Shown in pieces: positions 82-63,652 of a stretch of 64,000 nucleotides of DNA. A model generated the notes under the pieces. It searched no databases. It was given only the letters and a program-made list of their open reading frames with translations, and had not been told where the DNA came from. Numbering within the stretch: the first letter of the stretch is position 1; each line of letters opens with the position of its first letter. Made by a program: the position numbers and the translations under genes. This stretch comes from Prosopocoilus inquinatus (Eukaryota; Arthropoda; Insecta; Coleoptera; Lucanidae), in NCBI GenBank assembly GCA_036172665.1, contig CM069873.1, positions 38,802,001-38,866,000 on the forward strand, given 5' to 3'.

Positions 82-953
82 TCACGAAAGTTGACACAAA
101 CGACTTATGTTTCTACTGAGTAAGATCACGTCTCTTTGACTTATGTTCACCTTTTCCAAGAAATCTGCATAACTCGAAAGAAACCGTTTAAACTCTGCTA
201 ATGTAGGAAGATCCCCTTTGAATTCCTGTTGTTCCCAACGTCTAATGGTCTCAGGATCTAACGTAGGAGTTACGAAATGAATAATAACTGGATCCCAAGA
301 ATCAGTTTTTACATCTAGAATTTCTAAAGATCGTAAATTTTTCGATAAAAAATCTACTAGATTTCTAAAAGCACCTGGGGAATCTGATCTGATTTCTTGA
401 AAGTTGAAAAGAGAATGAAGGTGATTATGAACCATTAAGCGTTTGTTCTCGAAACACAAAATGTCCCAAGCACAATATATATTTCTTACGAAAACTTAAT
501 TGAAGCGATGGTTTGAGCCGCAGCTCCATCTAAGGACGCCCTAAGATAATGGAATTTCTGAATTGGTTCAATGTACTTACAATTGTGAACCAAAGAAGTG
601 AAAAGATCTCTAAACTCTACCCACTGCTCGTAAAGACCTGAAAATATCGGCAACTCAATTGTGGGAAGCTTGACTCCCACTCTTTTTGCGAAAGGATTCT
701 CCACAACCCGATGGACTTCAGAGCTGGATTTTTTTGCATAAACTTTGAATTCAGTACAGCTGTACAGAGGCTCCTCGAGGTTTTCACTGCAATCAAGAAC
801 GATTTGCACAAAATTTTTCTAAACTTTCTAATTCTAACTGAATACTTGCAAAATCTGCTAGTAAATGAGACTCAATATTACTAATGCGCATTTCAATTTG
901 AAGCAATTTAGCTTGATCGATTCACTATCATTTTTGTTCTTTTTTAGTGACAT
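82..953 (-). pseudogene. BEL-A copy 1 gag (DUF1759-type), broken
   Basis: Structural (gag) protein of a BEL/Pao element. The start codon is the CAT at 951-953, matching the start of copy 2 at 19882. Two translated blocks remain: 486-809 with the DUF1759-like stretch FSGLYEQWVEFRDLF followed by IQKFHYLRASLDG, and 82-459 with FKGDLPTLAEFKRFLSS. These are the usual order of the family. Breaks: about 100 bp of the coiled-coil N-terminus is missing relative to copy 2 (which has it at 19740-19850), a foreign fragment replaces sequence near 757-827, and the two blocks lie in different frames. Confidence 0.75.
757..827 (+). repeat. Fragment of hammerhead-bearing repeat (retrozyme-like) inside BEL-A gag
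   Basis: About 70 bp matching the 3' half of the repeat unit described at 34321-35363: the end of the hammerhead (ACAGCTGTACAGAGGC) plus the following tail CAATCAAGAACGATTTGCAC. BEL-A copy 2 has about 20 different bases at this spot (around 19616-19640), so this is a secondary insertion or replacement in copy 1. The ribozyme core (CTGANGA) is absent, so this piece cannot cleave. No clean TSD was recognised. Confidence 0.6.
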
Positions 954-29900: not shown

Positions 29901-29945
29901 TTCTGAATCTCGTTTGAACGGAAGTCTGACTGTGAAACGTCCGTG

Positions 29946-31844
29946 TTAATTTCTCCTAACGGTCCTTTTGAAGTGATCTTCACAAAGCTGCTCTTCAGGC
30001 GTGAAATGAACGCGCTTGCAACAATCTTCAAGCTTCCAAAACGTTGTAAGTTTGTCATCAAGAGAAGCATTCGTGATAAAATTGCAAACAGTAGAGCTGT
30101 GGCTCGACTTTTGTAATGAAGTACCCGCTATTATCCAACCGAAATGAGTTTTCTGAAGAAATGGGTGGTTGTTGGTTGCCTTTATTTGACCAACACACAA
30201 CAACTTCCAAAAGAGATCAGCTCCGATAAGCATATCGATTGGACCTGGGATGTTAAATTTTGGATCAGCTAGCCTTATGTTTTTAGGAATGTCGAAATTT
30301 GAAATGCTAACTGGTTTCAATGGTATCCTTTCTGTAATTTGATCAATGATAAGGCATTTGAGATTCGCGCGAAAGGCACTGAGACGTGATTTAATCTCAG
30401 TTTTAATAGAACGTTTGATTGACGATGTTGAATTGTTTATTCCTACCATTGGAATATGTAACGATTCTTGAATGATACCTAATTGATTTGCGAGATTTGT
30501 AGTGATAAAGTTGGATTGGAAACCCGAATCAAGAAGCGCTCTGCATGATTGCAATTTGTGTTTCGCATCGTAAACGTCAATTAAAACCGTGGACAGAAAT
30601 ACTTCGGATGAAATGTCATGGTTTGCTGAGTGATTATTAACCGTCATACTTTCTGTCGACGTTGATGGCTGCTGAGAAATTTCATATGTGATGTGCAATA
30701 ATGTGTTATGCCTTTTCTTGCATTTTTTACAGGAACTGCTGACGCATTGACTTGAATGGTGACCTCCCTTCAAGCAATTTACGCAGAGTCTTTTTGCTTT
30801 TATTTCCCTTAGGCGTTGATCTGCGCTCATATTTAAGAATTTATCGCACTGAAAAATCATATGTTTGCCCGTGCAGATCGGACAAATAACATTTGTAATC
30901 ATCACGTGATTTATGCTTTTGTGTGATTTACTTTGTAGTGCTTGTGATAAACTTGATCCTTCGAACTTTCTAGAGATTGACTCTAGCGTTTGACACTTTT
31001 TGTTTAAAAATTTAATCATGTCGTCGAATGCAGGAATTGTCGTGGAAGATGGCAAATCAGTCTCCCAGTCCTTGAATGTAGCAGAATCAAGTTTGCTTGT
31101 AATCAAGTGAATGAGTAAGTCATCCCATGTGTCAACTGGTCTGCCTAGTGATTTCAAAGCTCGTGTATGTTTCAAGATCCCGTCGAGTATTTGGCGTAAA
31201 CCGACGTGATTTTCTTTGACGACCGTTGGTAAATTGAAGATTGACTTAACGTGATTTTGAATGATTATACGTTTGTTATCATATCTCGATTTTAACATAT
31301 CCCATGCAACTTGGCAATTTTCATTTGAGACCGTTAAGGAATCAAGTATTTGACTGGCGGTGCCTTTTAAAGCTGACTTTAAGTAGTGAAACTTTTGAAT
31401 ATCCGGAATCGATGTGTTTGAATGTATGAGTGAATTAAATGTATCGAAAAAAGGAACCCATTCTTCGTATCTTCCAGAAAAATGAGGTAATTCAATTTTA
31501 GGAAGACGCACGTTATTTTTTGTTTGCTCTTCAGATGCTTGATTGTTGATAGATATGGATTCACCTTTTAAAAGAATTCGTTTGGACTGTCCCAATAATT
31601 GAAAATAATTATCTTCAAATTCATTTCTTAGCTCTTCTTGATATTCAGAATTTTCAAGACATTCAATTTGTGTTTGCACGTCGCTGAATTGATCCAAAAT
31701 GCTAGTAAATTTGTCTTGGCGCTCTTTTAATATAATTAAATCTATTTCCGAGCTCAATGAATCAAGATATGTAGCAAATCTAGTGATTGATGATTTTAAA
31801 TGCTTCCGTTTGTTCTTGCAAGTTTTCAGTAGTGTTTCAGCCAT
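29946..31844 (-). CDS. BEL-B gag and A17-type protease
   Basis: 632 codons from MAETLLKTCKNKRKHLKSS. A coiled-coil-like N-terminus is followed by the DUF1759 gag core (HFSGRYEEWVPFFDTFNSLI, IQKFHYLKSALKGTASQIL). Zinc knuckles are CPICTGKHMIFQC, CVNCLKGGHHSSQC and CKKCKKRHNTLLH. The protease has CRALLDSGFQSNFITTNLA with the catalytic D-S-G, and ends with PGPIDMLIGADLFWKLL. The frame ends at a TAA (29946-29948); the next codons HGRFTVRLPFKRDSEML continue the family pattern in the same frame, so a single nonsense change separates it from RT. Confidence 0.88.
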   Translation of the reverse strand: MAETLLKTCKNKRKHLKSSITRFATYLDSLSSEIDLIILKERQDKFTSILDQFSDVQTQIECLENSEYQEELRNEFEDNYFQLLGQSKRILLKGESISINNQASEEQTKNNVRLPKIELPHFSGRYEEWVPFFDTFNSLIHSNTSIPDIQKFHYLKSALKGTASQILDSLTVSNENCQVAWDMLKSRYDNKRIIIQNHVKSIFNLPTVVKENHVGLRQILDGILKHTRALKSLGRPVDTWDDLLIHLITSKLDSATFKDWETDLPSSTTIPAFDDMIKFLNKKCQTLESISRKFEGSSLSQALQSKSHKSINHVMITNVICPICTGKHMIFQCDKFLNMSADQRLREIKAKRLCVNCLKGGHHSSQCVSSSCKKCKKRHNTLLHITYEISQQPSTSTESMTVNNHSANHDISSEVFLSTVLIDVYDAKHKLQSCRALLDSGFQSNFITTNLANQLGIIQESLHIPMVGINNSTSSIKRSIKTEIKSRLSAFRANLKCLIIDQITERIPLKPVSISNFDIPKNIRLADPKFNIPGPIDMLIGADLFWKLLCVGQIKATNNHPFLQKTHFGWIIAGTSLQKSSHSSTVCNFITNASLDDKLTTFWKLEDCCKRVHFTPEEQLCEDHFKRTVRRN

Positions 31845-31962
31845 GATGTATAAGAAGCGTGATTTTAGGAATTTGTGGAAAATGTAAATGGAGTAATTGG
31901 AGACTTACCTCTCGTTGTTGTTCGTAGTTCTGTGGCGTTGAAGGAGTTGTCGTTGGAGATCT

Positions 31963-31981
31963 GGCTCGAAGGACCAAAAAA
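31963..31981 (-). promoter_or_regulatory. BEL-B primer-binding region
   Basis: Sense TTTTTTGGTCCTTCGAGCC directly after the 5' LTR. TGGTCC... is complementary to a tRNA 3' end, and this exact style is common in BEL/Pao elements. Confidence 0.75.
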
Positions 31982-33007
31982 TGTTGACGATGGCACGTCT
32001 GATTCACCACCCACGGGTTGTAAGGCCGTATAGGTATATTGTTAACTTTGTTGGTGACAGTTATTAATTGGAAAGGCACTAAGAAACATTAACACCTTTA
32101 TTTCTAGTTTAATGATAGCACTAACAAAACTCAGAACTACACGAAACTTAAAGTTAATTACACTAAAATCACTTCAAATACAGAATATTAATAACGATGT
32201 GAAAATGTATTTACTTGACTGTTTGTATATTATGTGAACTGCTGTTCAACTTGTGAATTAATATAAGTGTATGTATGATCACCGTTTGTGTTATTATGAT
32301 GATCGTTGAGTATGTGTGATGACTGAAATGAATGAATGTATATGTCTCTGCGTTTTAAGACGTTACAGAATATATAGCTCAATACGAAGGGGAGATGGAA
32401 AAAATGCATAAAGTAATTCGTAGAAAATTAATAAAATGGGAAACAAAATGACTTTAAGTTGTTTTGTCGTTGTGATGAAAATTCAAAGAAGCTCGTAGGA
32501 TTTTAAATGCACTTAATGCTTGTGAATTAGATGAGCGGTGACTTCCGCGAATAGTTAAGAAAAAATGGTCTGATATCTTAGACCGTCGAAAAGCAGGTAC
32601 AACGCTTTATGCGTATAGCACGTGTATTTCTAATACGAAGAAAATAAGAATCGACTGAAAGATAGGTGAGTTTGTTCGAAGAAAATGTGGGGCTTAACTT
32701 GTTATGTTTAAGTGATTTTTAGAAGTTGACAATTCAGTGTTCAGATAAAAAATAATAGATTTTTACGTGGTACATTCTTATTAATGTATACGCGGAAGAG
32801 CAAAACGCTAAAATTCCAAATAAGATTTACTCGGAAGGACGATATAAAGAATGCGTAAACATTTCGGTGGAGATTAAGCCGAATGATTTTAAAGTATAAT
32901 ACTAAACCAAATACCTGAACTAATTTACCGGAACTGAAGTGCGTTCTTATTAATAAATTAATATTTGAATAAAATAAACTAAACACATTTGCATATTGTC
33001 CTCAACA
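31982..33007 (-). repeat. BEL-B 5' LTR
   Basis: TGTTGACGATGG...CCTCAACA on the plus strand, 1026 bp, the promoter LTR of this minus-strand element. It is followed by the TSD TAGAT. Confidence 0.9.
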
Positions 33008-33012
33008 TAGAT

Positions 33013-33529
33013 CACACAAGAAAAACGCCTTCCTCTCGTTTTCTGACTATCCTTAGAGCGCGTCATTCCCAATTTCTAGTAAACACTTTTTTGCTAAATG
33101 AGTTTTATTGCTTTTCACAAAAAACTACTTCCTTATTACTGTTGTTACCGACTTATGTAATGTTTTAAAATGTTCCTAAATAAATTCTCTTTACAGTTAT
33201 CAAACAATAATCTCCGTATATATTTTGTTTTGTTACCGCGAATGTTTTTCTTGTTGTCGTGTTGCTTGAAGACTTCTTGGCCGAAGACGACCATTTTGGC
33301 TTACAATGTCTTCACCTTTTGCTAGGCTTAAGAGATGCCTTCATATCAGCAAAGTCCTGCATCCTTTGTTACATCGTAGAAGCTTCAAAACTGACTTTAG
33401 ATTGCGGTTCAATGTATTATGTCCTAACCCATATCATTTAATTCATGGAACAAAATTTGTGTTTTGGTGTAAACATTATTTGAAGCAAAATACCTTGGAA
33501 TTACAATTCTCCCTTGATAAACAAAATTT
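33013..33529. other. Non-coding spacer
   Basis: Between BEL-B and the LINE fragment. Two overlapping open frames (33259-33536) have no recognisable domain and no start context. Nothing else seen. Confidence 0.4.
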
Positions 33530-34503
33530 ACACTGACTTTAAACAAAATTCTCATAAATCATAATAATACATCCCAAAAATGTAAACAAAACTTATTTAA
33601 CATAATCAAAATTAAATCTTCAACTAAAATAACATAGCTATACGTCGTCTGTAATATTTAAAATCGCCGTTGAGCAGTGGTCTGAAACCTGACTGTGTGG
33701 TTGGCAATAAGTTATTTTTTATTAAAAAGGTTTGCAAATTGTTGGGACATTATTTTTTCTAAAATTTTCGACATTACAGGTAAAATATTTAAATTTATTT
33801 ATTTAAATCCTTTAAGTTCAGTAGGTGAGCGAATTTTAGGTATCGGGATTATGTTAGCAATCTTCCATGCTGACGGATAACACTTTATAGTTCAAACAAA
33901 AGTTAATAATATGAGCTACGTTAGGTAGAATGAAAGGGCAACTTAATTTTAAAAACAAAATACTTATAACATCAGAGCCCACCGCATTCGTTTTAATAGA
34001 CAATAATAATTTAAAAACTGAGTGATCACTAACCGGGCTGAAATCAAATGAATCAGTGTTATTTTTTGTATTATTTTCATAGAATTGAATTAACTGAGGT
34101 TTGTTAGCATTGGGCATTATAGTAGGGGAAGTAAAAAAAAATATTTATTTCCTCAGGATTTGTCAGTTGTGCTTGTAAATTATGATTTGTAGTGTTCTTA
34201 ATAAAATTAAGTTAAAAGTTTCTCAGTCCTTTATAATATATCCAGTCACTTTCAGTTTTGGTTGTTTTATATTTCTTTAGTGCATTATCTCGCAGGAACA
34301 TTAAATACATTAAATTTTTGAACATATAAAATAGCGACATCTTACTATCGCTTTTTGACCTAACATTGCAGTAGGATAGACAAATTGAAGCGGGATTTGC
34401 TCCTAATGAGTCCCCCATGCAAGGCGGCCATGCTTGCTGTCAAAGCATAATGAAAGATTTTAGAAAAATTTTGTGCAAATCGTTTTTGATTGCAGTGAGA
34501 ACC

Positions 34504-34568
34504 TCGAGCAGCCTCTGGACAGCTGTTTCAGCCCTGCTTGGGGCTTCTTCAGCAGAAACGTAGCTCGA
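34504..34568 (-). ncRNA. Hammerhead ribozyme, retrozyme-type, unit a
   Basis: Reverse complement of the two ribozymes at 34947 and 35257. Core CTGAAGA (CUGANGA), 5-bp stem II AGCCC/GGGCT with loop CAAGCA, GAAAC, four-base loop AGCT, cleavage triplet GTC. Stem I pairs TCTG with CAGA and, after an internal loop, TCGAG with CTCGA. Confidence 0.85.
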
Positions 34569-34946
34569 CATTCCCACTGCAGACCAAAAACGACTTGCCC
34601 AATTTATTCGCAAATGCGATGTAAGAATGATGAACATATAAAATAGCGACATCTTACTATCGCTTTTTGACCTAACATTGCAGTAGGATAGACAAATTGA
34701 AGCGGGATTTGCTCCTAATGAGTTTTAGAAAAATTTTGTGCAAATCGTTTTTGATTGCAATCAAAAACGATTTGCACAAAATTTTTCTAAAACTCATTAG
34801 GAGCAAATCCCGCTTCAATTTGTCTATCCTACTGCAATGTTAGGTCAAAAAGCGATAGTAAGATGTCGCTATTTTATATGTTCATCATTCTTACATCGCA
34901 TTTGCGAATAAATTGGGCAAGTCGTTTTTGGTCTGCAGTGGGAATG

Positions 34947-35011
34947 TCGAGCTACGTTTCTGCTGAAGAAGCCCCAAGCAGGGCTGAAACAGCTGTCCAG
35001 AGGCTGCTCGA
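34947..35011 (+). ncRNA. Hammerhead ribozyme, retrozyme-type, unit b
   Basis: Core CTGAAGA at 34963-34969. Stem II AGCCC/GGGCT. GAAAC at 34986-34990. Cleavage predicted after C34997 (GTC). Stem I TCTG/CAGA plus TCGAG/CTCGA separated by an asymmetric internal loop, the place where natural type I hammerheads make tertiary contacts. All invariant core residues are present. Position 7 of the core is A here and T in the 57-kb copy; that position is free to vary. Confidence 0.87.
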
Positions 35012-35256
35012 GGTTCTCACTGCAATCAAAAACGATTTGCACAAAATTTTTCTAAAATCTTTCATTATGCTTTGACAGCAAGCATGGCCGCCTTGCATGG
35101 GGGACTCATTAGGAGCAAATCTCGCTTCAATTTGTCTATCCTACTGCAATGTTAGGTCAAAAAGCGATAGTAAGATGTCGCTATTTTATATTCATCATTC
35201 TTACATCGCATTTGCGAATAAATTGGGCAAGTCGTTTTTGGTCTGCAGTGGGAATG

Positions 35257-35321
35257 TCGAGCTACGTTTCTGCTGAAGAAGCCCCAAGCAGGGCTGAAAC
35301 AGCTGTCCAGAGGCTGCTCGA
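35257..35321 (+). ncRNA. Hammerhead ribozyme, retrozyme-type, unit c
   Basis: Same sequence as unit b, 310 bp downstream. Cutting at both would release a 310-nt linear RNA with ends suited for circularisation. Confidence 0.87.
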
Positions 35322-35960
35322 GGTTCTCACTGCAATCAAAAACGATTTGCACAAAATTTTTTTATTAAATTTTTGGTTAGCCACGGAGAAGGTGGTTTAG
35401 TAATTTGCTGAATTTTTAGAGGCGCATATAGATTAAAAAGTGTGAGCATATTACAATTGAAAAAATCTATTTTGTCATTAATATCATTTAAGTCATAAAT
35501 ATTTCGCTACGGTATAGAACACAGATCACTATTAAATTGGTAATACAGAAAATCTTTGAAACTTCTGTAAGTTTGTTTTGTAGAAACACGTTTAGAAGTA
35601 AATACACTCTTACAAAATACCAGTTCATGATCCGAGTAATCATGCAAACTTACCGTATCAGCAGTGGTAAAAATATTCTTATTTGATACTATTAGTACAT
35701 CTAAAAGTGTCGAGGATAAATTAGTTACTCTTGTTGGCTTCTTAACAAGTTGCACAAGATTATAAGACTCTAACAGGGTGAAAAATTTTTCGCTAATTAA
35801 CTGTCAGTATCCAGCAGATCAATATTTAAGTCGCCCATACAAATCATTTCATCAGATGTTGAGGCAACAATATTTAGATGAATTGTCTAATTCTTTTATT
35901 TTCTGTTTATGTACATTTCCGATAAGATTTGGTGACTTCATACTTTGGAATTTTGGCCGC

Positions 35961-36786
35961 AAATTGAAGAAATTGGCCCACCGCGCAGTGGCGTAAACCC
36001 AGGGCAGTAGGTTATCATTTTAGTAAATAATTTTCTTATTTCCACTTTTTAAAAAGAACTGAAACAAGAATTTAAAAGTTCGAATAAAATTGTAAAATGA
36101 TAAGTAAGTTCCATCTACGTCAGAATAACCGTTTTCGAGATAATTAGATTGAAAGTTCACATTGCTGCAGAAACTCGAAATTTCGTAAAGCTCTGACATG
36201 CCTTGAAAGCATTAACTGAAATTTTACGTGTGCATTTTACATGTCAATATACAATACATGAGTGTTGCACAGTTTTTTTTTTCTCAAAATATGTTTTTCA
36301 AGTGGCTTTTATGCCTCAGAAACGAAAAACTTTTGCATGTAAGTAAATTAGGTTAAGTAGTAATATTTTGACGCCGTCAATACGTGGTATAATTATTGCC
36401 ATCATATTAGATAACAGCCTGCAGAGACGACGTACGAAACAGGAAAATCTTTTTGAATGTCAACTTCGCAAAATAAAACCTATTCTTTACAAACGGTTCT
36501 ACTTGTTGAGATACTCCAAAAGCAACGCTTAAATTTAAACTCTTAACTACGGTATATCAAGAATTTCCAATTTCTTAGTTTTATGTTGCAGAAATCAAAG
36601 TAACGTTTTTATTATGAGGTCCTGACAATTCTATGACTTAGGACCCCGTTGGTCAACTACCACAAATAAAAAGAAAATATTGATTTTAAGCAAAAAACGA
36701 ATTCTTAAAAAATCTACTGTTCGAAGAACTTCAGAGATCCGACAGTATCACTTATTGCATTCTATGTCTTGTATTAGTAATATGAC
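35961..36786. other. Non-coding region
   Basis: AT-rich, no gene or repeat recognised. It may hold upstream regulatory sequence of the bHLH gene; no convincing binding-site cluster was seen. Confidence 0.4.
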
Positions 36787-36789
36787 TTA

Positions 36790-36995
36790 TGCCCGGTTTC
36801 TGAAACGATACATAACTTTATATAGAGATAAACTCAGGGTCAACTCACCATAACTTCTAAAAACCATTTCTCAAAACTTTGTCCGTGGATAGAGCGTATA
36901 CGTAGCAACATAAACGATTTATACTTTTCATAAAGTTACCTGTCAATAAAAATTTATCTTTACATGAAATTATTTATTGTTTCAGAAACCAGGCA
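36790..36995. mobile_element. PIF/Harbinger-like MITE (206 bp)
   Basis: Inverted ends TGCCCGGTTTCTGAAACGAT and (reverse complement of right) TGCCTGGTTTCTGAAACAAT, flanked by the 3-bp TSD TTA (36787-36789, 36996-36998), as expected for PIF/Harbinger. It lies about 760 bp upstream of the bHLH start codon. Confidence 0.8.
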
Positions 36996-36998
36996 TTA

Positions 36999-37754
36999 AT
37001 TTATCTTTCTGACATTCATAAAGTTACTTTTTCAAATAACCCCACAAATAACCAACCCAATTGATGGGACTTATCTTAATAAACTTTAGTTATTATTTTT
37101 TAACCATTGCTTTCAAAGTTAAAAAAATTTTTGGAAAAACAATGGAAATGTTTATACTAAAGGAAAATATCCACCAATTGTGGAAATATTTATTTTGCAA
37201 TCGATTTCGTACTCTGTAGAGGCTAACAATCAGCTTATAAACGAAGGATTCCATTTTTGAGCCACACTTTATACTTATACTATACTTTACTAATTTAGTA
37301 AATAATTTATTGCAACGTAGTTGTTTAATACCTAACTTTTTCGTTACAGGTTCAACAGTATTCAGCACCCAGTCACTCAGAAAAATATGTTATCAAGTAT
37401 AAAGTTAACAAGAGGTTAGCCGACGAAAAGTTATAGAAACCAAACTTTCCGTATGGATTTGATCTTGAACACAATTCGAACAAAATATGTAATAAATTCT
37501 GCAGAAGAATAGAACAGCAGCTACAAGTAAATAAAATATGTAAAGCAAGACATTCTATGCGCAATTAGAAACAAATTGCTTAAATGCAAGAAAGGAATAT
37601 TACCTACTTTAATTGAAATATTTCGTTTACTTGATGCGATGTAGTGCTACGCGATACCTGATCATTGAATTAAACATGCGTAATATTTTTGCCAAACTTT
37701 ATATTAGTTTGAATCACACAATATTAAGAATGAAATTAATCATCGAACATAAAT
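36999..37754. other. Upstream region of the bHLH gene
   Basis: AT-rich, no other gene. It contains a CAATTG (37154-37159), a generic E-box form, but E-boxes of this kind arise often by chance. The transcription start cannot be placed from the sequence. Confidence 0.4.
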
Positions 37755-38321
37755 ATGTTCCTTTACCGGCGAGGTTATAGCTCAATGTCTAACGAAACTT
37801 CCTCTGATGGTTACAACTCGCCACGCGGTTCAAGTCCGGAAAGTTCTTATAGATACACCTTATCGAGTCCTAGCCCCTCAGAATCAGGGATGTCCTCACA
37901 ACCTTACATTCCGAATTGTTACAAACAGGATGATCCGTGGTCTCGTCAACAGTACTATGGTGAGAACAATAACGTGTACCACAAGTACGATTACAGGTAT
38001 AAATCTTCTCGTACTGAATCGTCCAATTCTACGCATGGATACGGAAATCAGGACTATTACAAGACTAACTGCGAGAACAAGTACAAAAAGGAGAATAAAA
38101 AGAGCACGACGGCTCAAGCAGGAATGGAGGTCATGAAGAAACGACGACTAGCAGCCAATGCAAGAGAAAGGAGACGTATGAATAGTTTGAACGACGCGTT
38201 TGACAGATTAAGGGATGTTGTTCCTTCTTTGGGGAACGATAGGAAGCTGTCAAAGTTTGAAACCTTGCAGATGGCTCAGACCTATATATCTGCGCTTCAT
38301 GAACTCCTGCAGAGAGATTAA
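37755..38321 (+). CDS. amos: Atonal-family proneural bHLH transcription factor (amos/atonal-like)
   Basis: 188 codons, single exon, ending exactly at the end of the bHLH domain, as atonal-family proteins do. Residues 1-60 are serine-rich ([16 protein letters not shown]); 60-115 are tyrosine- and asparagine-rich. The basic region and helices fill residues 130-188: [20 protein letters not shown], then [17 protein letters not shown] and [26 protein letters not shown] is the atonal-group DNA-contact signature. The family makes sense-organ precursors and acts in the nucleus as a heterodimer with a Daughterless/E protein on E-boxes. MNSLNDAFD and DVVPSLG look closest to Amos from memory, but ato or cato are possible. 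The first ATG is chosen; a second is at codon 11. The frame is uninterrupted and this is the only convincing host gene in the window. Confidence 0.9.
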
Positions 38322-38673
38322 AGGCGAAACGTAAGGTGTACTTATTTTGTCTTAATCAATTAAGTCAATTCCTTGTTATAATTTTGTTTTAAAAACAATG
38401 TGATTTTTATGAAAAGATATTAGAAGTTAATGTTAATACCTTTGTGCAATATTTTGTTTCTTATTAGGTAATTAGGTTAGTATAGCGCTAAAAGACAAAT
38501 ACGCTACTTCGTGTCATCTGGGTCACTTCAGTTTTTTTCTGAATTGGAGGTGTTCATTAAGCCCTAAAATGAAACTATGTTTAAAGCTTTAAATATTCAC
38601 ATGTACAATAATTAAATGGCGATTAGAAAAAAATAACTTTATTTGAATTTACGAAAATTTTTGATTAATAAAG
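38322..38673 (+). other. Probable 3' UTR of the bHLH gene
   Basis: No coding sequence. An AATAAA polyadenylation signal occurs at 38667-38672, 346 bp after the stop codon and just before the insertion at 38686. Transcript end is not demonstrated. Confidence 0.45.
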
Positions 38674-38685
38674 TTCATTTTAATA

Positions 38686-39053
38686 GAGAATATGAAACAA
38701 ATAAAAAAAAAAACTTTTTAAAACGAACTAAACGAGTAATTTATTGACTTACATGACGTTTCGCAAATATAATTATTTTATTATTATTTTTTTTTTCTAT
38801 ATTTTCTTTGAGAAAGCAAATAATTATATTTGCGAACTTTTTAAAACGAGCTAAAAGAGTAATTTATTGACTTACTTGACGTTTCGCAAATATAATTATT
38901 TTATTATTATTATTTATTTGAGAAACCAAATAATTCTATTTGCAAAACGTCAAGTAAGTCTATAAATTACTCTTTTAGCTCGTTTTAAAAAGTTTTTTTT
39001 TTATTTGTTTCATATTCTCTGCAATTATCACGAGCAAGAACTACCCAAAAAAT
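38686..39053. mobile_element. 368-bp inverted-repeat insertion with 12-bp TSD next to the bHLH gene
   Basis: TSD TTCATTTTAATA at 38674-38685 and 39054-39065. The left end GAGAATATGAAACAAAT is repeated inverted near 39005-39021, and a second direct copy of the arm lies in between (38839-38905). In reverse complement the arms read GCGAAACGTCATGTAAGTC, the 3' half of a PLE-type hammerhead (GAAAC-GTC), but no CTGANGA core is present. The TSD length and inverted arrangement match the PLE-type insertions elsewhere in this window. No coding sequence. Confidence 0.6.
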
Positions 39054-39065
39054 TTCATTTTAATA

Positions 39066-40208
39066 ATTGATTCCGAAATTCAAGTAATGATAATTATATA
39101 ATCTTCTCTCTGATGTGCCCCTAAAATTTGTATGACTATTTTCACTATCTATGAAGATACACTTTTTACAAAGATAAACCAGACGTATTAAAATCCGCTA
39201 CGAATAAGCGTTTTCGATCCTCATCTCAATTTATTCCGAAATGAAGATACACTCTGTGTACGTAGTGTACTCCAATCGAAAACGCTAAAAATTACATCAT
39301 GCTATTTAAAAAAAAATAGAAGACATACATCACGCTATGTAAAAAACAGAAAAAGGAAACAATTGAAGAACGAGGTCTTAAAAATGATGAAGACTATATC
39401 CTTAACATCCTACACAACTTTTCTTAAGCATTTTTGCTCTATCTCTTAAAATAAGAAAATTATTTTAAACGTGGAATCACGAAACAACCTAACATGGCGT
39501 AATAGTTTTCCGCTTTTTTCTCTAAATTTATGGGAGTAAACATTTTTCACGGTTCAAGTCAGATTTTTATGTCTATTAAGATTTGCTATAAAAATACACT
39601 ATGCAATTAAAAAATAGGTCAAACACGGAGCTGGCATGGCTGTTTAAAGGCAATTGAAGATCGAATCATTACAGTTCTCCGGGTTGTTCAATGTAGATTT
39701 TCTCAAAAATTTTACGCTGCAGCTCTCAGAAGTTATTTTGGAAAAATAGAACCGTCACTGAACCGGTGTATTTGCATTTTAGATCTCAAACGACCGTGAA
39801 ATATCTTATGTCATATGTTAGCTAACAATCACAGGGTGTTCCAGTGAAATATCTTATGTCATATGTTAGCTAACAATCACAGGGTGTTCCACTTAAAGTG
39901 GCTTCCTTCATAACTCTCTAGTTATAACGTTTTGGTGTAGAGCATATTTTGAAATTTGTTTAAGAATTATGACTATATCGTAGAGATATTTCTAAAAATT
40001 AATTTTGTGAATTTTATAAATTTCAAAATTTAATTATTTGTAGTTTTCACAGTGACTTTTCTTAGTTTATATTTTATGTAAGCATAGCAATCAACAAATG
40101 TCACAATATTTAATGTATTTTTAAAAATTGTAAAGAAAGTACATACTGAAGAAACTATTCATCTAAAAGAGAATGAAACAGCGCGTTTACTAAAGGTAAA
40201 AAACATAC
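39066..40208. other. Non-coding region
   Basis: AT-rich, no gene. It contains the 48-bp tandem duplication listed separately and remnants of mariner-type ends (CAGGGTGTTCC). Confidence 0.45.
39796..39891. repeat. 48-bp tandem duplication
   Basis: The unit starting GTGAAATATCTTATGTC and ending CAGGGTGTTCCA occurs twice in a row (39796-39843, 39844-39891) without differences. The end resembles a mariner-type terminal motif. Confidence 0.85.
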
Positions 40209-40212
40209 GGTA

Positions 40213-40540
40213 AGTTATATCTTACAGAGCGGTTAAGGCGTTTTTTAAAAATTATTTTATTATTTACTTGGAAATATAACAAATATAAATTAATTACAAC
40301 TTTATTTATTTATTTAACACTATTACGTAAAAACTTCGTACAACACTAATACTATAGCCAAGACTATTCAAAGACTACTCTCCGATTAAAATGTGAACAA
40401 GGGTATTTATAGCGAATACACCTACACATTAATACAGTAAGCATTATACATGACCATGACCGTTATATGAATCAGCGAAGAGAGTTATATAATTAAATAA
40501 GTTACTAACAAAGAATCTATTGTTTTAATGTAATATAACT
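40213..40540 (-). repeat. Gypsy-B 3' LTR
   Basis: 328 bp, AGTTATATC...ATATAACT. It matches 49317-49624 plus the tail after the MITE, with many small differences, so the insertion is older than Gypsy-A or BEL-B. Confidence 0.8.
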
Positions 40541-40551
40541 CCTCCATCCTC
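40541..40551 (-). promoter_or_regulatory. Gypsy-B polypurine tract
   Basis: Sense GAGGATGGAGG immediately before the 3' LTR. Confidence 0.7.
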
Positions 40552-40782
40552 AAATTCGAGCATTTTTTCAAGAAGTTACAAATGCTTGAACTGGCTCCTG
40601 CGTGGAGGGTGTTGTATTCTTTATCAGCTAGGTAGAGCCTGTAGATTATGCCGACCATGAAACTGGTGCAGTCTAGTAGTGGATCTCGAGGGTTCATGAT
40701 ATGTAGGTTCCATAGGGGTACTTGTGGGGTTTGTGGATTTTGTCCAGAGGAATATTTTAAATAACCATTTTTTTGGCGGGTT

Positions 40783-45668: not shown

Positions 45669-45990
45669 TTCTAAAATATTATTTTTATTTTTTAAATTAA
45701 AAATTATAAAAATTATTTAATGAAAATAAAATTTTTTCAATAAAAATTATTAATTCAATTTAATTAATTATTTATTCAATACAATTATTTGAAGAAAATA
45801 AACAATTTATTTATTTTATTTTTAAATTAAATTTATTCTTAATTAATTCAACCACTTTCGTTTTCACTGAAGGATTTTGAAAAATGAAAGAAAATAAAAA
45901 TTATATAATTGAAGTTTGTTCTTGTCCGATGAAAATAGTAAGTACAAAGTTTTTTTAATCTCAAACCGGACAGAAAAATGAAGGGAAACA

Positions 45991-46032
45991 CATTCAACGT
46001 TTCGCTATAGATTTATAGCTTCGTCAGGAGTG
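45991..46032 (-). ncRNA. PLE-type hammerhead ribozyme, left arm of PLE-1
   Basis: Sense: stem I strand CACTC, core CTGACGA, stem II GCTATA/TATAGC, then GAAACGTT with cleavage triplet GTT, and stem I return GAATG. One stem I mismatch compared with the other copies (GAGTG). Stem III has no loop: AACGTT is self-complementary, so activity would be expected from a dimer. Confidence 0.75.
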
Positions 46033-46200
46033 AAAAAAAATAAATAAACAAGTTGTCAAGAGAAACAAGTCGTCAAGAGAAACGAAAAGGTAACATGATT
46101 TTTAAACTAAACTACGAGTTGTTCGGAATAAAAGTAACGAGAACTAATTAAAGCTACTTTTTTTTTTTTTAATATATATATAATTAATTAATTGACAGAT

Positions 46201-46554
46201 CTATATCTTGTTTAAAGAGTCCAGAAAACTACAAAATATGTCATTTAAATTTACAAAGTCCGTACGTTTATTAATAGAATTTCCAGACATTTTAATTTTA
46301 CACATTTCTATGAAACGTCTTTTAAAAATATTAGATTCACTGTACAAAATGTCAGTATTATCAAAATCAAAATTATGATTATTTACTAATGAATGCTCTA
46401 CAAGCATTGAATGATTTTGATAATTTTTTTGAATATGATATTTATGTTGGTCTAAACGTATTTTTAAATTTTGGCTCGTTTCACCTATATAAACAGAATT
46501 ACAATTTGAACATTTGATTTCATAAACCACGTTAGGTTGTTTTAATTTCGGCAT
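46201..46554 (-). pseudogene. Inverted copy of PLE-1 GIY-YIG endonuclease end
   Basis: 117 codons nearly identical to the C-terminus of the frame at 46570-48687 (KCSNCNSVYIGETSQNLK, then DQHKYHIQKN), but on the opposite strand and without the RT. It belongs to the inverted leading arm and is not an independent gene. Confidence 0.88.
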
Positions 46555-46569
46555 TTTGATAATATCACA

Positions 46570-48687
46570 TTGACTAATTTTCTAAATTTTGAAAATCAAA
46601 AAAATGAAAGGTATTTTAATAAAATTCGATTAACACAGATTAAAAAGTTAGATAATCTTATTTCTATTAGAGATAAAAATTTTTACATTAAATTTGATCA
46701 AAATATAATAAATAAGTGGCTTGTAAATTATACAAAAACTGAGATTCCGTCAAATTTAAAATACATTTTCGCTTTAGGCAAAAAATTTTCATTACCTTAT
46801 TTTCATAAACAACAAGTAGATTTCTTAAAAGTATTAAGTAGCTTAGAGTTTGGTATTAAATCTTTAGATTCACCTTCAAAAATACAAATAAGAAATAAAT
46901 TTTGTTCTAATTTTTTAAATTATATTAGAAATATTGATAAAACTTTTGAAAAATCAAAGTATAAGATTCTTATTAGAGATGTTTTGTCTTGTAAAAAATT
47001 TCTTAAAGATAATCCTAATATTATTGTTACTACAGCTGATAAAAGCAATGTAACTGTTTTAATTGATAAAACTGATTATTTTTCAAAAGTTCAAACTATG
47101 CTGTCTGATAATAATACATATGTAGAATTAGCTAACGATCCCACCGAATCTTATCAACGTAAAACTTTCAGTATTATTAATAAGATAGAGAAATCCGTTG
47201 AAATTAGTAATATTGTTGCTAAATCTCTTAAAGTACAACATCCCATATTTCCTAAATTATACTGCATTCCAAAAATTCATAAACCTAATACACCTCTTCG
47301 TCCTATAGTTTCCACTATTGGTTCTTCTCCATATTTCTTATCTAAATTTATTTCAAAAATCATTACTCAGGTTACTAGTAAATCAGAATATTTTATAAAA
47401 AATTCTTTTGAACTCGTACAAAAATTAAAACAAATAACTGTACCAAATAATTGCATTATAATTTCTTTAGATGTTATTTCTTTATTTACTAACATTCCTA
47501 AAGATTTAGCTTTAAAAAGTATAAATGATAGGTGGTTAGAGATTAAAGATTTTACTGATATTTCCAAAGGTAACTTTTTAGAAATAGTTGATTTATGTTT
47601 TGAAACATCTTATTTTGCTTTCAATGATAAATTTTATAAACAGATTTTTGGTACAGCAATGGGTTCTCCTTTATCTCCGGCTTTAGCTGAAATTGTTATG
47701 CAAGAACTAGAAAAATCTGTTATTAACTCTTTATCATTCGATTTAACGTTATATTTTCGTTATGTGGATGACATTTTATTGATTTTGCCTTCTGATAAGG
47801 TAGATTTTGTTTTAAATAAATTTAATTCTTTTCATAATAGATTACAATTTACAGTAGAAAAAGAAAATAATAATTCATTGAGTTTTCTTGATGTAAATAT
47901 TATCAGACAGAATGATAAATTAATTACTAATTGGTTTCATAAACCTACCTGGTCAGGTAGGTACATAAATTTTCACTCGTACACACCTAAAAATTATAAA
48001 ATTGCAACTATTATTTCATTAACTGATCGAGCTATTTTACTTTCTGATAAAGTTTTCATTTATGATAACTTAAATTTAATAAAGAAAACTCTTATTCAAA
48101 ATTCTTATCCAATAAATCTTATTGAATCAGTAATTAAAAATCGTATTAAATACTTACAAAATTCAAATGTCTCTAAAAACATTAGACAAACTTCGAATCA
48201 TAAATACATATCTTTGCCTTATATTGAACCATTACGCAATACATTTAAACACATTTTCAAAAAACATAATTTAATTTTAGCCAGTAAATCTGTGAATAAT
48301 TTAAATTTAATTTTTTCGAATTTAAAAACCAAAATACCGAAATTAAAACAACCTAACGTGGTTTATGAAATCAAATGTTCAAATTGTAATTCTGTTTATA
48401 TAGGTGAAACGAGCCAAAATTTAAAAAAACGTTTAGACCAACATAAATATCATATTCAAAAAAATAATCAAAATCATTCAATGCTTGTAGAGCATTCATT
48501 AGTAAATAATCATAATTTTGATTTTGATAATACTGACATTTTGTACAGTGAATCTAATATTTTTAAAAGACGTTTCATAGAAATGTGTAAAATTAAAATG
48601 TCTGGAAATTCTATTAATAAACGTACGGACTTTGAAAATTTAAATGACATATTTTGTAGTTTTCTGGACTCTTTAAACAAGATATAG
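46570..48687 (+). CDS. PLE reverse transcriptase with GIY-YIG endonuclease
   Basis: 705 codons. The frame opens with TTG and has no early ATG; it runs back into the junction with the inverted arm, so the true N-terminus is probably truncated. RT: CIPKIHKPNTPLRPIVST, IISLDVISLFTNIPKDLALK (first catalytic D), FGTAMGSPLSPALAEIVM, FRYVDDILLILPSDK (YVDD), SLSFLDVNIIRQND. GIY-YIG domain from about residue 595: VVYEIKCSNCNSVYIGETSQ, then RLDQHKYH and a conserved E in MLVEHSLVNN, the metal-binding glutamate. The endonuclease nicks the target and RT copies RNA there. No internal stop or frameshift; it could supply activity if expressed with a start codon. Confidence 0.9.
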   Translation: MTNFLNFENQKNERYFNKIRLTQIKKLDNLISIRDKNFYIKFDQNIINKWLVNYTKTEIPSNLKYIFALGKKFSLPYFHKQQVDFLKVLSSLEFGIKSLDSPSKIQIRNKFCSNFLNYIRNIDKTFEKSKYKILIRDVLSCKKFLKDNPNIIVTTADKSNVTVLIDKTDYFSKVQTMLSDNNTYVELANDPTESYQRKTFSIINKIEKSVEISNIVAKSLKVQHPIFPKLYCIPKIHKPNTPLRPIVSTIGSSPYFLSKFISKIITQVTSKSEYFIKNSFELVQKLKQITVPNNCIIISLDVISLFTNIPKDLALKSINDRWLEIKDFTDISKGNFLEIVDLCFETSYFAFNDKFYKQIFGTAMGSPLSPALAEIVMQELEKSVINSLSFDLTLYFRYVDDILLILPSDKVDFVLNKFNSFHNRLQFTVEKENNNSLSFLDVNIIRQNDKLITNWFHKPTWSGRYINFHSYTPKNYKIATIISLTDRAILLSDKVFIYDNLNLIKKTLIQNSYPINLIESVIKNRIKYLQNSNVSKNIRQTSNHKYISLPYIEPLRNTFKHIFKKHNLILASKSVNNLNLIFSNLKTKIPKLKQPNVVYEIKCSNCNSVYIGETSQNLKKRLDQHKYHIQKNNQNHSMLVEHSLVNNHNFDFDNTDILYSESNIFKRRFIEMCKIKMSGNSINKRTDFENLNDIFCSFLDSLNKI

Positions 48688-48857
48688 ATCTGTCAATTAA
48701 TTAATTATATATATATAAAAAAAAAAAAAAAAAGTAGCTTTAATTAGTTCTCGTTACTTTTATTCCGAACAACTCGTAGTTTAGTTTAAAAATCATGTTA
48801 CCTTTTCGTTTCTCTTGACGACTTGTTTCTCTTGACAACTTGTTTATTTATTTTTTT

Positions 48858-48899
48858 CACTCCTGACGAAGCTATAAATCTATAGCGAAACGTTGAGTG
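48858..48899 (+). ncRNA. PLE-type hammerhead ribozyme, right end of PLE-1
   Basis: CACTC (48858-48862), CTGACGA (48863-48869), stem II GCTATA/TATAGC, GAAA (48887-48890), CGTT, GAGTG (48895-48899). Stem I is a perfect 5-bp pairing; cleavage is predicted after GTT (48894). The minimal loop-free stem III with self-complementary AACGTT is the form reported for PLE hammerheads that act as dimers. Confidence 0.82.
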
Positions 48900-48964
48900 T
48901 GTTTCCCTTCATTTTTCTGTCCGGTTTGAGATTAAAAAAAACTTTGTACTTAAAAATTATATAA

Positions 48965-56875: not shown

Positions 56876-57214
56876 CACAGTATACAGGGTATTTCATGAT
56901 TAACCGGCAGCAGACGAAGTGTGGATAGAGCACAGGAAATGGAACCATTTTTGTTAAAAAAACAAAAAAAAAATAATCTCATCTTTAGAGGCCGGAAAGC
57001 CGTCCTGAGTACGTGTAAATACGCCAACCATGACTTACCCTAATCCATATTGGGAACTTGGCAATAAACTGTGTGCGATGATGGCAATAAACAGATTAAG
57101 ACGGCCATAAAAAGGACAAAAATAGTCCGAGAAAACTGGTGGTGATGCAAGTCTATAAAATGACGTAACAAAATAATACCGATCTAAGAATGTACCTGAC
57201 AAACAATAATTTTT

Positions 57215-57465
57215 GCGAATAGATAAAACAGCGACATCCTACGACCGCTTTTTGACCTGCTTTTGTGTGTGTTTTTGTTGCTGTTTTATCTATTCACCAT
57301 TATTACATCGCATTTGCGAATAAATTGGTCAAGTCGTTTGTGGTTTGCAGTGGGAATTTCGAGCTACGTCTCTACTGATGAAGCCCCAAACAGGGCTGAA
57401 ACAGCTGTATAGAGGCTGCTCGAGGTTTTCACTGCAATCATTAACGATTTGGAACAATTTTTTTT
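57215..57465 (+). mobile_element. Old retrozyme-like unit with one hammerhead
   Basis: Diverged relative of the 34321-35363 repeat: CATCGCATTTGCGAATAAAT, GTCAAGTCGTTTGTGG, one hammerhead, and the tail GAGGTTTTCACTGCAATCA. Flanked by AATAATTTTT (57205-57214, 57466-57475), a TSD of at least 10 bp. The left end carries a small inverted piece (GAATAGATAAAACAGC and GCTGTTTTATCTATTC). Confidence 0.75.
57359..57423 (+). ncRNA. Hammerhead ribozyme, retrozyme-type, 57-kb copy
   Basis: Core CTGATGA (57375-57381), the textbook form. Stem II AGCCC/GGGCT, GAAAC (57398-57402), loop AGCT, triplet GTA (cleavage after A57409). Stem I TCTA/TAGA and TCGAG/CTCGA. Relative to the array copies, TCTG/CAGA has become TCTA/TAGA: a paired change that keeps the stem, which supports a selected RNA structure. 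Confidence 0.88.
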
Positions 57466-60850: not shown

Positions 60851-61566
60851 TTTCAGTGAATTAATGTGGTCGAGGGGTTTTCTCACTATTTATTTGGATT
60901 ACAGCCACAGGTTTTGTGTTGCTTTGTGATTCTCGTACGTAATAATAACAAAACGACCTAACTAATAATTACTTACATGTCGAAACCAAAATTTTATATC
61001 AACCATATTAAACGCGTCAGGTAGGTATGATCTTAATTTAATTGATAATATTTGTCGCACTATATTTTCTAATTCTTGTAAACGATATTCCGTCTGCGCA
61101 TTGCTTATGATTATCAGCAAATTCGTATTCACTATGAATAGACATGGGCTTCACATAACTTTAAATTCGTTTGTTCCCAATTTGAATTTATTTATTCTCA
61201 ATTTGAATTTGATCAGTCCCAATTTGAATTTGTTTTTTCCCAATTTGAAATTGCTTCATCCCAATTTGAAATTGAAAAGGTATAGAAGACAATGCTTAAG
61301 AACCTCTTAAGTTTAAGAACTGACTATGAATTTCGGCCCAAATTAAAATTCGAAATTGTTGTTTCGCTTTACAAACGACAAACCACGTTCCTGGCTAGAT
61401 TCAAAGTAAAAATTCAAAAACGTAATAATTTAATCGGATGAAAAGTGAAACTTTTCTCATTTCTGTGAAGTTTACATTCTCTAATTGAAGTTTGTTCTTG
61501 TCCGATGAAAATAGTAAGTACAAAGTTTTTTTAATCTCAAACCGGACAGAAAAATGAAGGGAAACA

Positions 61567-61608
61567 CACTCAACGTTTCGCTATAGATTTATAGCTTCGT
61601 CAGGAGTG
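61567..61608 (-). ncRNA. PLE-type hammerhead ribozyme, left arm of PLE-2
   Basis: Same motif as at 48858-48899 on the minus strand: core CTGACGA, stem II GCTATA/TATAGC, GAAACGTT, with stem I CACTC/GAGTG fully paired. Confidence 0.8.
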
Positions 61609-61821
61609 AAAAAAAGTAAATAAACAAGTTGTCAAGAGAAACAAGTCGTCAAGAGAAACGAAAAGGTAACATGATTTTTAAACTAAACTACGAGTTGTTC
61701 GGAAAAAAAGTAACGAGAACTAATTAAAGCTACTTTTTTTTTTTTTTTTTTTTTATATATATATAATTAATTAATTGACAGATCTATATCTTGTTTAAAG
61801 AGTCCAGAAAACTACAAAATA

Positions 61822-62783
61822 CTCTTTATCATTCGATTTAACGTTATATTTTCGTTATGTAGATGACATTTTATTGATTTTGCCTTCTGATAAGGTAGAT
61901 TTTGTTTTAAATAAATTTAATTCTTTTCATAATAGATTACAATTTACAGTAGAAAAAGAAAATAATAATTCATTGAGTTTTCTTGATGTAAATATTATCA
62001 GACAGAATGATAAATTAATTACTAATTGGTTTCATAAACCTACCTGGTCAGGTAGGTACATAAATTTTCACTCGTACACACCTAAAAATTATAAAATTGC
62101 AACTATTATTTCATTAACTGATCGAGCTATTTTACTTTCTGATAAAGTTTTCATTTATGATAACTTAAATGTAATAAAGGAAACTCTTATTCAAAATTCT
62201 TATCCAATAAATCTTATTGAATCAGTAATTAAAAATCGTATTAAATACTTACAAAATTCAAATGTCTCTAAAAACATTAGACAAACTTCGAATCATAAAT
62301 ACATATCTTTGCCTTATATTGAACCATTACACAATACATTTAAACACATTTTCAAAAAACATAATTTAATTTTAGCCAGTAAATCTGTGATTAATTTAAA
62401 TTTAATTTTTTTCGAATTTAAAAACCAAAATACCGAAATTAAAACAACCTAACGTGGTTTATGAAATCAAATGTTCAAATTGTAATTCTGTTTATATAGG
62501 TGAAACGAGCCAAAATTTAAAAAAACGTTTAGACCAACATAAATATCATATTCAAAAAAATAATCAAAATCATTCAATGCTTGTAGAGCATTCATTAGTA
62601 AATAATCATAATTTTGATTTTGATAATACTGACATTTTGTACAGTGAATCTAATATTTTTAAAAGACGTTTCATAGAAATGTGTAAAATTAAAATGTCTG
62701 GAAATTCTATTAATAAACGTACGGACTTTGAAAATTTAAATGACATATTTTGTAGTTTTCTGGACTCTTTAAACAAGATATAG
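61822..62783 (+). pseudogene. PLE-2 RT C-terminus and GIY-YIG endonuclease
   Basis: Lacks the N-terminal two thirds of RT; starts around LTLYFRYVDDI, so YVDD is kept but the other catalytic aspartate is gone. A single extra T in a T-run near 62408-62411 shifts the frame, separating 61874-62452 from the GIY-YIG part at 62454-62783 (KCSNCNSVYIGETSQNLK). Otherwise nearly identical to PLE-1. Confidence 0.88.
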
Positions 62784-62960
62784 ATCTGTCAATTAATTAA
62801 TTATATATATATAAAAAAAAAAAAAAAAAAAAAAAGTAGCTTTAATTAGTTCTCGTTACTTTTTTTCCGAACAACTCGTAGTTTAGTTTAAAAATCATGT
62901 TACCTTTTCGTTTCTCTTGACGACTTGTTTCTCTTGACAACTTGTTTATTTACTTTTTTT

Positions 62961-63002
62961 CACTCCTGACGAAGCTATAAATCTATAGCGAAACGTTGAG
63001 TG
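62961..63002 (+). ncRNA. PLE-type hammerhead ribozyme, right end of PLE-2
   Basis: CACTC (62961-62965), CTGACGA, stem II GCTATA/TATAGC, GAAACGTT, GAGTG (62998-63002). Identical in motif to the PLE-1 right-end copy. Confidence 0.82.
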
Positions 63003-63450
63003 TGTTTCCCTTCATTTTTCTGTCCGGTTTGAGATTAAAAAAACTTTGTATTTACATTCTCTGGTTCCATATCATTCTAGAATGAAAGTTAGAAATTGTT
63101 GTTTCGCTTTACAGACAACAAACCACGTTCCTGGCTCGATTCAAACTAAAAGAAGAACGTTTACTAATTTACAGCAATTTAGAGGTTAGATGATACTTCG
63201 AAATTTCTAAGCAAAATACAGATTTGTATAGATATTGTAATCTATTCACTTAACTGACAGTCGACAACGTCCTTTGTAAAAGCAAAAATGCGAAATAATC
63301 TCCGCAAGGATTTATTTCGGGCTTACAAAATCATTTTGGACATTTTGGTTTTCTGGTTCCATATCACTCTAGAATGAAAGTTAGAAATTGTTGTTTCGCT
63401 TTACAGACGACAAACCACGTTCCTAGCTCAATTCAGACTAAAAGAAGAAC

Positions 63451-63652
63451 TTAGAAAAATTTTGTGCAAATCGTTTTTGATTGCAGTGAGAACGATTTGC
63501 ACAAAATTTTTCTAAAATCTTTCATTATGCTTTGACAGCAAGCATGGCCGCCTTGCATGGGGGACTCATTAGGAGCAAATCCCGCTTCAATTTGTCTATC
63601 CTACTGCAATGTTAGGTCAAAAAGCGATAGTAAGATGTCGCTATTTTATATG
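63451..63652. mobile_element. Retrozyme-like fragment without ribozyme
   Basis: TSD TAAAAGAAGAAC, 12 bp (63439-63450 and 63653-63664). The neighbouring satellite monomer shows the empty site near 63149-63165. Content: a 33-bp inverted piece of the unit tail, then the tail and constant part up to CTATTTTATATG, the same end as in the 34321 array. The hammerhead was lost at the inverted junction. Confidence 0.8.

Follow-up and report, generated by a model that had tools for sequence, protein, structure and literature searches.

The window analysed here, 64,000 nucleotides of the lucanid beetle Prosopocoilus inquinatus (GenBank assembly GCA_036172665.1, contig CM069873.1, positions 38,802,001 to 38,866,000 of the forward strand), houses at 34321-35363 a 1,043-nt insert that carries three hammerhead ribozyme motifs and is flanked by a perfect 12-bp target-site duplication (TSD), ATTAAATTTTTG. 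An earlier interpretation made from the letters alone, which we call the sequence-only reading, had taken this insert for a protein-free retrozyme that splits a long interspersed nuclear element (LINE), and had reported the TSD, which is indeed found on both sides. Pfam searches with two of the longest plus-strand frames gave no match, in agreement with a protein-free insert. The surrounding element is decayed and lies on the minus strand; the best of its three sub-threshold matches, Exo_endo_phos_2 at 17.8 bits against a cut-off of 27.4, hints only weakly at a LINE, and in its frames the duplicated 12 bp encode Lys-Asn-Leu on each side of the insert. Here, we use the copies of this element in the beetle's own genome to describe how they are inserted, and argue that their head-to-head arrangement, which the sequence-only reading did not see as a rule of the family, is a clue to the mobilising enzyme, probably that of a Penelope-like element (PLE). 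Coordinates of the features are collected in Table 1.

The three hammerheads, said to have all invariant core residues, stand where they had been placed: a scan of the 64 kb for CTGANGA-N(8-30)-GAAA-N(2-12)-GTC returns exactly three matches, a plus-strand pair 310 nt apart (34963-34997 and 35273-35307) and a third, head to head with them, on the minus strand (34552-34518). This bare pattern is expected 0.41 times in shuffled sequence, and three matches were reached in one of 100 shuffles. When helices I and II are also required the window yields four matches, the fourth being a diverged copy at 57375-57409, against a single match in total (0.017 each) among 60 Markov-shuffled 64-kb sequences. 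The 65-nt motif is identical in its three copies in the insert and, read by eye, combines the core CUGAAGA...GAAA...GUC with a helix I of UCUG/CAGA plus UCGAGC/GCUCGA around an internal loop, a helix II of AGCCC/GGGCU and a helix III of two base pairs only (AC/GU) that closes the loop AGCU. Plain minimum-energy folding of the 71-nt motif favours a different pairing around helix III; hammerheads need tertiary contacts, and minimum-energy folding ignores such contacts. The covariance-model check proposed for these motifs gave a divided answer, as the Rfam model Hammerhead_1 (RF00163) aligned over its full length (1-45/45) in an 86-nt scan, at 23.8 bits (E = 3.4e-4), and nothing in the whole window reached a gathering cut-off, which is 34 for this model; on a 2.6-kb scan Hammerhead_HH9 was the sole hammerhead family listed (14.5 bits, E = 7.3). 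MicroRNA-like matches in the same scan were rejected as the palindrome described below folding on itself. Searches of viral contigs for the exact hammerhead pattern, and of a phage collection for the hammerhead pattern, found none.

Tandem units of about 310 bp had been expected elsewhere in the genome, and there are many. A search of the window's own genome (649.6 Mb, 173 contigs) with the 310-nt unit gave 628 first-look candidates, 40 of which were scored; these are the best full-unit matches, so short and old insertions are under-sampled, with no obvious bias toward the pairing of unlike ends described below. From 38 fetched loci and the window insert, onto which the unit was mapped, we obtained 46 retrozyme clusters. 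The family unit is 312 nt long, and one unit of the window insert is 2 nt shorter, a difference that the sequence-only reading had missed. Across the fetched loci and the window the 65-nt motif occurs in 97 copies, 47 of them distinct and 40 copies identical; among the distinct motifs the nine invariant core columns have 0.78 changes each and the other columns 2.14, recurrent changes including those at a helix-I loop position, N7, loop II and H17 (C to A). In the second insertion of the window the motif (57359-57423) has A at H17 and one paired change in helix I. The family thus has a type I hammerhead with an invariant core (its RF00163 score lying below the cut-off), 310-312-nt tandem units with a GC content of 43%, and dispersed multiple copies with TSDs longer than 4 bp. 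No long terminal repeat (LTR)-type ends were seen among the mapped retrozyme ends, primer-binding sites and polypurine tracts not having been searched for. The hammerhead, unit and copy features support the earlier view of the insert as a hammerhead retrozyme, here one copy of a dispersed, non-autonomous family of the metazoan non-LTR type; we found no name for the family, eukaryotic repeat libraries not being among the sources searched, and it is plausible that the family itself is undescribed.

The main result goes beyond the sequence-only reading and concerns how the ends are arranged. Of the 33 two-armed clusters, 32 run strictly minus-then-plus with both outer ends being RNA-sense 3' ends; the exception, L021, has a more complex interior. 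The outer ends fall at two places in the unit, site A (CACAAAATTTTTCTAAAA), close to unit position 57, and site B (GCTATTTTATATGTTC), close to position 197, and in 28 of the 46 clusters there is one of each (A/B), one cluster being B/B and none A/A. Once apparent duplicates (L016, L033, L039 and L043) are left out, together with the window copy, since it and L011 are one insertion, 25 A/B and one B/B insertion are retained, and two further A/B insertions in the window bring the count to 27 of 28, for which independent, even-odds choice of each end gives a probability of 1.1e-7. The stops themselves are narrow: among 34 end reads from insertions with 11-14-nt TSDs, the 16 from A ends stop within 53-66 and the 18 from B ends within 194-199. 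Inner ends, by comparison, are at scattered positions, and the head-to-head junctions often have a few shared bases; apparent inner ends at unit position 1 are edges of the rotated reference.

The arms are mostly long and run through the ribozyme. Among 68 arms from 32 loci (two complex loci excluded), 60 cross the predicted cleavage junction; 44 are longer than one unit, and 11 are longer than two. Four arms are listed as ending within 4 nt of the junction; three of these are cut by the reference edge and run on for 13, 2 and 5 nt, and the fourth, in L014, stops at position 5, leaving no arm that ends exactly at the predicted cut and three that end within 5 nt of it. Units differ on average by 1.7% within an arm, 1.8% between arms and 2.8% between loci. 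Most minority alleles are confined to a single unit (20 of 22 in L013, 13 of 14 in L011 and all nine in L015), and 15, 11 and 7 of these, respectively, are absent from the units of other loci; such mostly private differences fit the repeated copying of one template, and later mutation fits them too.

Target sites were examined in 41 distinct clusters. An exact TSD of 11-14 nt is present in 18 of them (ten of 12, six of 13 and one each of 11 and 14 nt), one has a TSD of 9 nt and one an ambiguous 21 nt, and a repeat of at least 11 nt arises by chance in 4 of 400 random placements. The duplicated sequences are AT-rich (83% A+T, against 68% in the window). For the third insertion of the window an empty site is available, as a neighbouring host repeat at 63050-63373 spans the site with the 12 bp present once. 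The target also resembles the RNA just beyond the stops. At positions 2-6 beyond site B, 52 of 90 letters match, against 34.4 when the duplications are shuffled among loci (0 of 5000 permutations), and at the same positions beyond site A, 39 of 80 match, against 29.6 (63 of 5000 permutations as high); position 1 was omitted because choosing the longest repeat inflates it.

In the window copy the two arms also form a perfect palindrome without spacer (434-nt arms, 34324-34757/34758-35191), which the sequence-only reading had overlooked. This was considered as a direct product of reverse transcription and dropped after comparison with the sister copy L011 (C5:47.29 Mb), which is the same insertion with the same TSD and has about seven units, making it ~1.1 kb longer. 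The region around L011 is 99.6-99.96% identical to window 30976-41249, inverted and 8.45 Mb away on the same scaffold. Because the L011 array is longer, and because a 47-nt deletion found in both window arms is present in one unit only of L011, the perfect palindrome is likely to be secondary, its centre having been rearranged later or, possibly, altered in the assembly. The duplication spans at least 10 kb (window 30976-41249 corresponding to G000:C5:47.281-47.293 Mb, inverted) and includes an atonal-like bHLH gene, the protein of which (37755-38318) has its closest named matches in Popillia japonica (80% identity) and Trypoxylus dichotomus (78%), as expected of a scarab-like beetle. It may be a true segmental duplication, or else a haplotype that was not purged. 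Contigs C6 and C15 carry three retrozyme loci in mirrored order, which suggests that C15 is a second haplotype of part of C6; given these mirrored duplicates, unpurged haplotypes are likely in the assembly, and the window copy and L011 may be alleles.

The same one-of-each pattern is found in the PLEs of this genome. The window contains two, and the 710-aa frame of the first gives RVT_1 and GIY-YIG matches above their cut-offs; the retrozyme frames show neither a reverse transcriptase (RT) nor a GIY-YIG domain (two of the longest were compared with Pfam and matched nothing). A search of the beetle's genome with this PLE, in which 63 of 7,682 candidate places were scored, found copies at 99-100% protein identity, 60 of the 63 being free of stops, and several form arrays in which minus copies precede plus copies, as at C3:41.90-41.93 Mb, where there are five of each. 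Nineteen insertions were viewed (17 fetched and two in the window), of which five were dropped as one end lay beyond the fetched stretch; their visible end is of the tail type in one and of the short type in four. All 14 readable insertions have one short end (...CTTTSTACTT, with small variations) and one tail end (...ACAAACTTCAATT), and TSDs of 11-15 bp. As the retrozyme's one-of-each end pattern is that of PLEs in the same genome, the PLE machinery likely copies the retrozyme, the protein probably using retrozyme RNA in trans, so far as shared end patterns can tell.

Two further observations concern the PLE termini. A hammerhead-like motif, CTGACGA-AGCTATAAATCTATAGC-GAAACGTT, with a possible helix I of CACTC/GAGTG, lies in the PLE 3' region at about 62961-63003 (+) and in the left arms of both PLEs (-); neither Rfam nor the structured hammerhead scan recognises it. 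A 17-nt tandem pair, GTTTCTCTTGACGACTT, is present in all four terminal regions of the two window PLEs (46046-46083, 48808-48845, 61622-61659 and 62910-62947).

Animals, insects among them, are known to carry retrozymes of this kind (PMC7229834), and the metazoan non-LTR retrozymes described there share with the beetle family the type I hammerhead, a unit of 170-400 nt, tandem copies, a GC content below 50%, TSDs longer than 4 bp, a self-paired predicted circle and co-existing PLEs. The beetle insertions differ in standing head to head with two fixed RNA-3' ends, and the words 'inverted' and 'head-to-head' are absent from the main text of that paper. Newt and axolotl hammerhead satellites (PMC7229834) likewise have type I motifs with a very short helix III and a palindromic loop, in units of 330-350 bp, and the passages of that paper on them mention no head-to-head insertions. 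Plant LTR retrozymes (PMC4918200) are also non-coding and hammerhead-bearing and have the circular RNA stage that is proposed here, but carry type III hammerheads in their LTRs, a unit of ~700 bp and a 4-bp TSD (PMC7229834, PMC7761336). As to the engine, PLEs have been favoured on the grounds that both elements carry type I hammerheads, form tandem copies and are found together (PMC7229834), and a 2020 review describes the retrozyme repeats as lacking a conserved motif that points to an autonomous partner (PMC7761336). The closest likeness in insertion structure is to GIY-YIG PLEs, with their head-to-head arms, two internal start sites bounding a tail, AT-rich targets and, in rotifers, TSDs of 8-10 bp (PMC11167929, PMC3846280). 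An anole PLE cleaves both strands, extends them and begins reverse transcription at two sites inside the RNA, with the tail lying between them (PMC11167929), and inverted copies of rotifer PLEs are mostly head-to-head with an optional tail on one inverted end (PMC3846280). Differences are that the rotifer Pen1 family has mostly direct repeats only (PMC3846280), that PLEs encode the enzyme and the retrozyme does not, and that no significant sequence is common to the retrozyme and the 3' end of the beetle PLE family. The element is plausibly a new family of a known retrozyme kind. We found no report of a two-ended, PLE-type insertion signature for retrozymes in the open-licence literature of PubMed Central that was searched.

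These observations can be assembled into a proposed route. Transcribed units would be cut by the type I hammerhead into RNAs of ~312 nt and then ligated into circles. A circular form, and hence a family that makes circular RNA, is proposed because of what is known for such families (PMC7229834), because the arms cross the junction and because unit differences are mostly private. The PLE protein would cut AT-rich DNA in a staggered fashion, and by geometry an 11-14-bp TSD together with two RNA-3' ends requires 3' overhangs as long as the duplication. One target end would continue at site A and the other at site B, as the insertions display, each overhang presumably annealing over a few bases and priming there. 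Each cDNA, made by the putative PLE enzyme, would extend back across the hammerhead junction and often beyond one unit, as the arms display, and the two cDNAs would meet head to head at scattered positions, often with a few shared bases. We put the probability at about 0.74 that the element is a retrozyme with two fixed, different RNA-3' ends arranged head to head, and mobilised by a PLE through target-primed reverse transcription at two internal sites of the predicted circle.

More tentatively, and at somewhat less than even odds, the PLE enzyme may be a machine with two slots, which loads the two 3' ends of the staggered break on two dedicated template sites, always one on each; the ~312-nt circle would then have evolved both sites across one loop, so that a single circle bridges the break and is copied round and round from both sides. 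Folded as a circle, the 312-nt unit reaches -112.1 kcal/mol, where 100 dinucleotide shuffles average -76.2 (sd 4.9), which gives z -7.3. One multibranch loop of the minimum-energy circle contains both sites, A in the unpaired stretch 48-69 and B in the unpaired stretch 186-210, with unpaired probabilities of 0.5-1.0 at site A and 0.3-1.0 at site B.

The strongest competitor keeps the PLE enzyme and replaces the circle with an uncleaved, multimeric linear transcript, making circularisation irrelevant. The crossing of the hammerhead junction by most arms is what an uncut multimer predicts too, units within an array differ by up to 4%, and insertion by the anole PLE in vitro needs no hammerhead activity (PMC11167929). 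Set against this are the confinement of most unit differences to one unit, for which later mutation is also an explanation, and the abundant circles among the metazoan retrozyme RNAs studied (PMC7229834), and overall we regard a linear template as unlikely, at about one third of the weight given to PLE mobilisation of a circle. A LINE acting by ordinary target-primed reverse transcription with twin priming is more improbable still. Twin priming gives inverted structures and TSDs of this length, LINEs in general would account for 11-14-bp TSDs and end microhomology, and 13 of the 46 clusters have a single outward RNA-3' end (nine B, four A), which suits them. Yet under twin priming only one 3' end is fixed and the other end falls at a random inner position, whereas here both outer ends are fixed and different in all but one of the 28 insertions, the comparison being with LINEs in general and not with those of this genome; moreover, no poly-A end is found among the retrozyme ends displayed, and the PLEs of the same genome follow the one-of-each pattern without exception. 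That the window palindrome is an assembly artefact has very little to recommend it beyond the near-identical inverted locus 8.45 Mb away with its 1.1-kb longer array and the likely unpurged haplotypes on C6 and C15, since the flanks differ, a direct TSD stands on both sides and more than 20 independent head-to-head insertions occur elsewhere, leaving only the exact centre of the window copy in doubt. Least credible of all is a DNA transposon, a MITE or foldback element with inverted repeats and a hammerhead by chance: a palindromic insert with a clean TSD and no Pfam match would suit one, but the two outer ends differ in sequence instead of mirroring one another, the copies are unlike in arm length, unit number and inner junction, and TSD length ranges from 11 to 14.

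PLE mobilisation from two internal sites of a circle has its own difficulties. Beside the single-ended clusters, four of the 46 (L018, L022, L025 and L028) combine a non-canonical end with one canonical end, and one insertion, L027, is B/B; L027 may be two adjacent insertions. No exact duplication of at least 9 nt is found in 21 of the 41 distinct clusters, which may reflect age, damage or one-sided ends. The target match at site A is weak, with 292 of 5000 permutations as high when positions 3-6 alone are counted, and with differences of 0.3-4% among the units of an array, the template need not have been a single circle. In vitro, the start sites of the anole PLE are not homologous to the cut DNA, are alike on both strands and are independent of the hammerhead (PMC11167929). 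Nor does the beetle PLE resemble its proposed passenger in sequence: its 3' end compared with the retrozyme unit gives a local score of 17, against a shuffled mean of 18.3 (373 of 500 as high), with only short TTTCTA and TTCA matches by eye at the start sites, so that the partner would have to be a different PLE family, or recognition would have to go by structure and not by sequence. In the unit 140 nt separate sites A and B, against ~33 nt between the two PLE sites, and no retrozyme-PLE chimaeras were found at the junctions of the 38 loci, two of which have PLE fragments elsewhere.

Table 1. Retrozyme and Penelope-like features of the 64,000-nt window
Feature	Position	Strand	Remarks
Left TSD of the insert	34309..34320		ATTAAATTTTTG
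Minus-sense arm	34321..34757	-	outer (left) end is site B, RNA-sense end ...GCTATTTTATATGTT
Hammerhead motif on minus strand	34504..34568	-	predicted cleavage after 34518
Plus-sense arm, ~2 units	34758..35363	+	outer (right) end is site A, ...CACAAAATTTTTTT
Internal site B copy	34879..34884	+	unit positions 194-199
Hammerhead motif 1	34947..35011	+	predicted cleavage after 34997
Unit between two predicted cleavage sites	34998..35307	+	310 nt; family unit 312 nt
Internal site A copy	35050..35058	+	unit positions 53-61
Hammerhead motif 2	35257..35321	+	predicted cleavage after 35307
Right TSD of the insert	35364..35375
One-armed 73-nt retrozyme fragment	747..819	+	ends at site A; candidate TSD 8 bp
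Second, older retrozyme insertion	57215..57465		B end left, A end right; TSD AATAATTTTT (57205-57214, 57466-57475)
Third retrozyme insertion, 202 nt	63451..63652		A end left, B end right; TSD TAAAAGAAGAAC (63439-63450, 63653-63664)
Penelope-like element 1, RT + GIY-YIG, open reading frame 46546-48687	45909..48950	+	head-to-head; tail end left, short end right
TSD of Penelope-like element 1	45895-45908, 48951-48964		14 bp
Penelope-like element 2, 5'-truncated	61483..63050	+	head-to-head; tail end left, short end right
TSD of Penelope-like element 2	61471-61482, 63051-63062		TTTACATTCTCT

Elsewhere, the window carries a likely Gypsy-like element (6329-10266), a P-element-like transposase (12367-14118), a probable Tc1/mariner-like transposase (26270-27142) and a BEL/Pao element with two long open frames (27726-31904). 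A second perfect palindrome without spacer, with 94-nt arms, lies at 60707-60894, and on its two sides a 21-nt tandem repeat forms arrays that are inverted relative to each other (60538-60656 and 61160-61274).

The enzyme that moves animal retrozymes has so far been an open question, and the two fixed ends with their one-of-each rule form a signature shared with the PLEs of the same genome, which makes the question testable in any genome that has both elements. The signature also predicts the cut geometry of the PLE endonuclease, namely 3' overhangs of ~12-13 nt, and offers in the retrozyme a compact, non-coding template for PLE biochemistry. Should the enzyme indeed load the two ends of each break on two dedicated template sites, the engine of animal retrozymes would be named, and the optional 'tail' of Penelope elements would become an obligatory rule of one short end and one tail.

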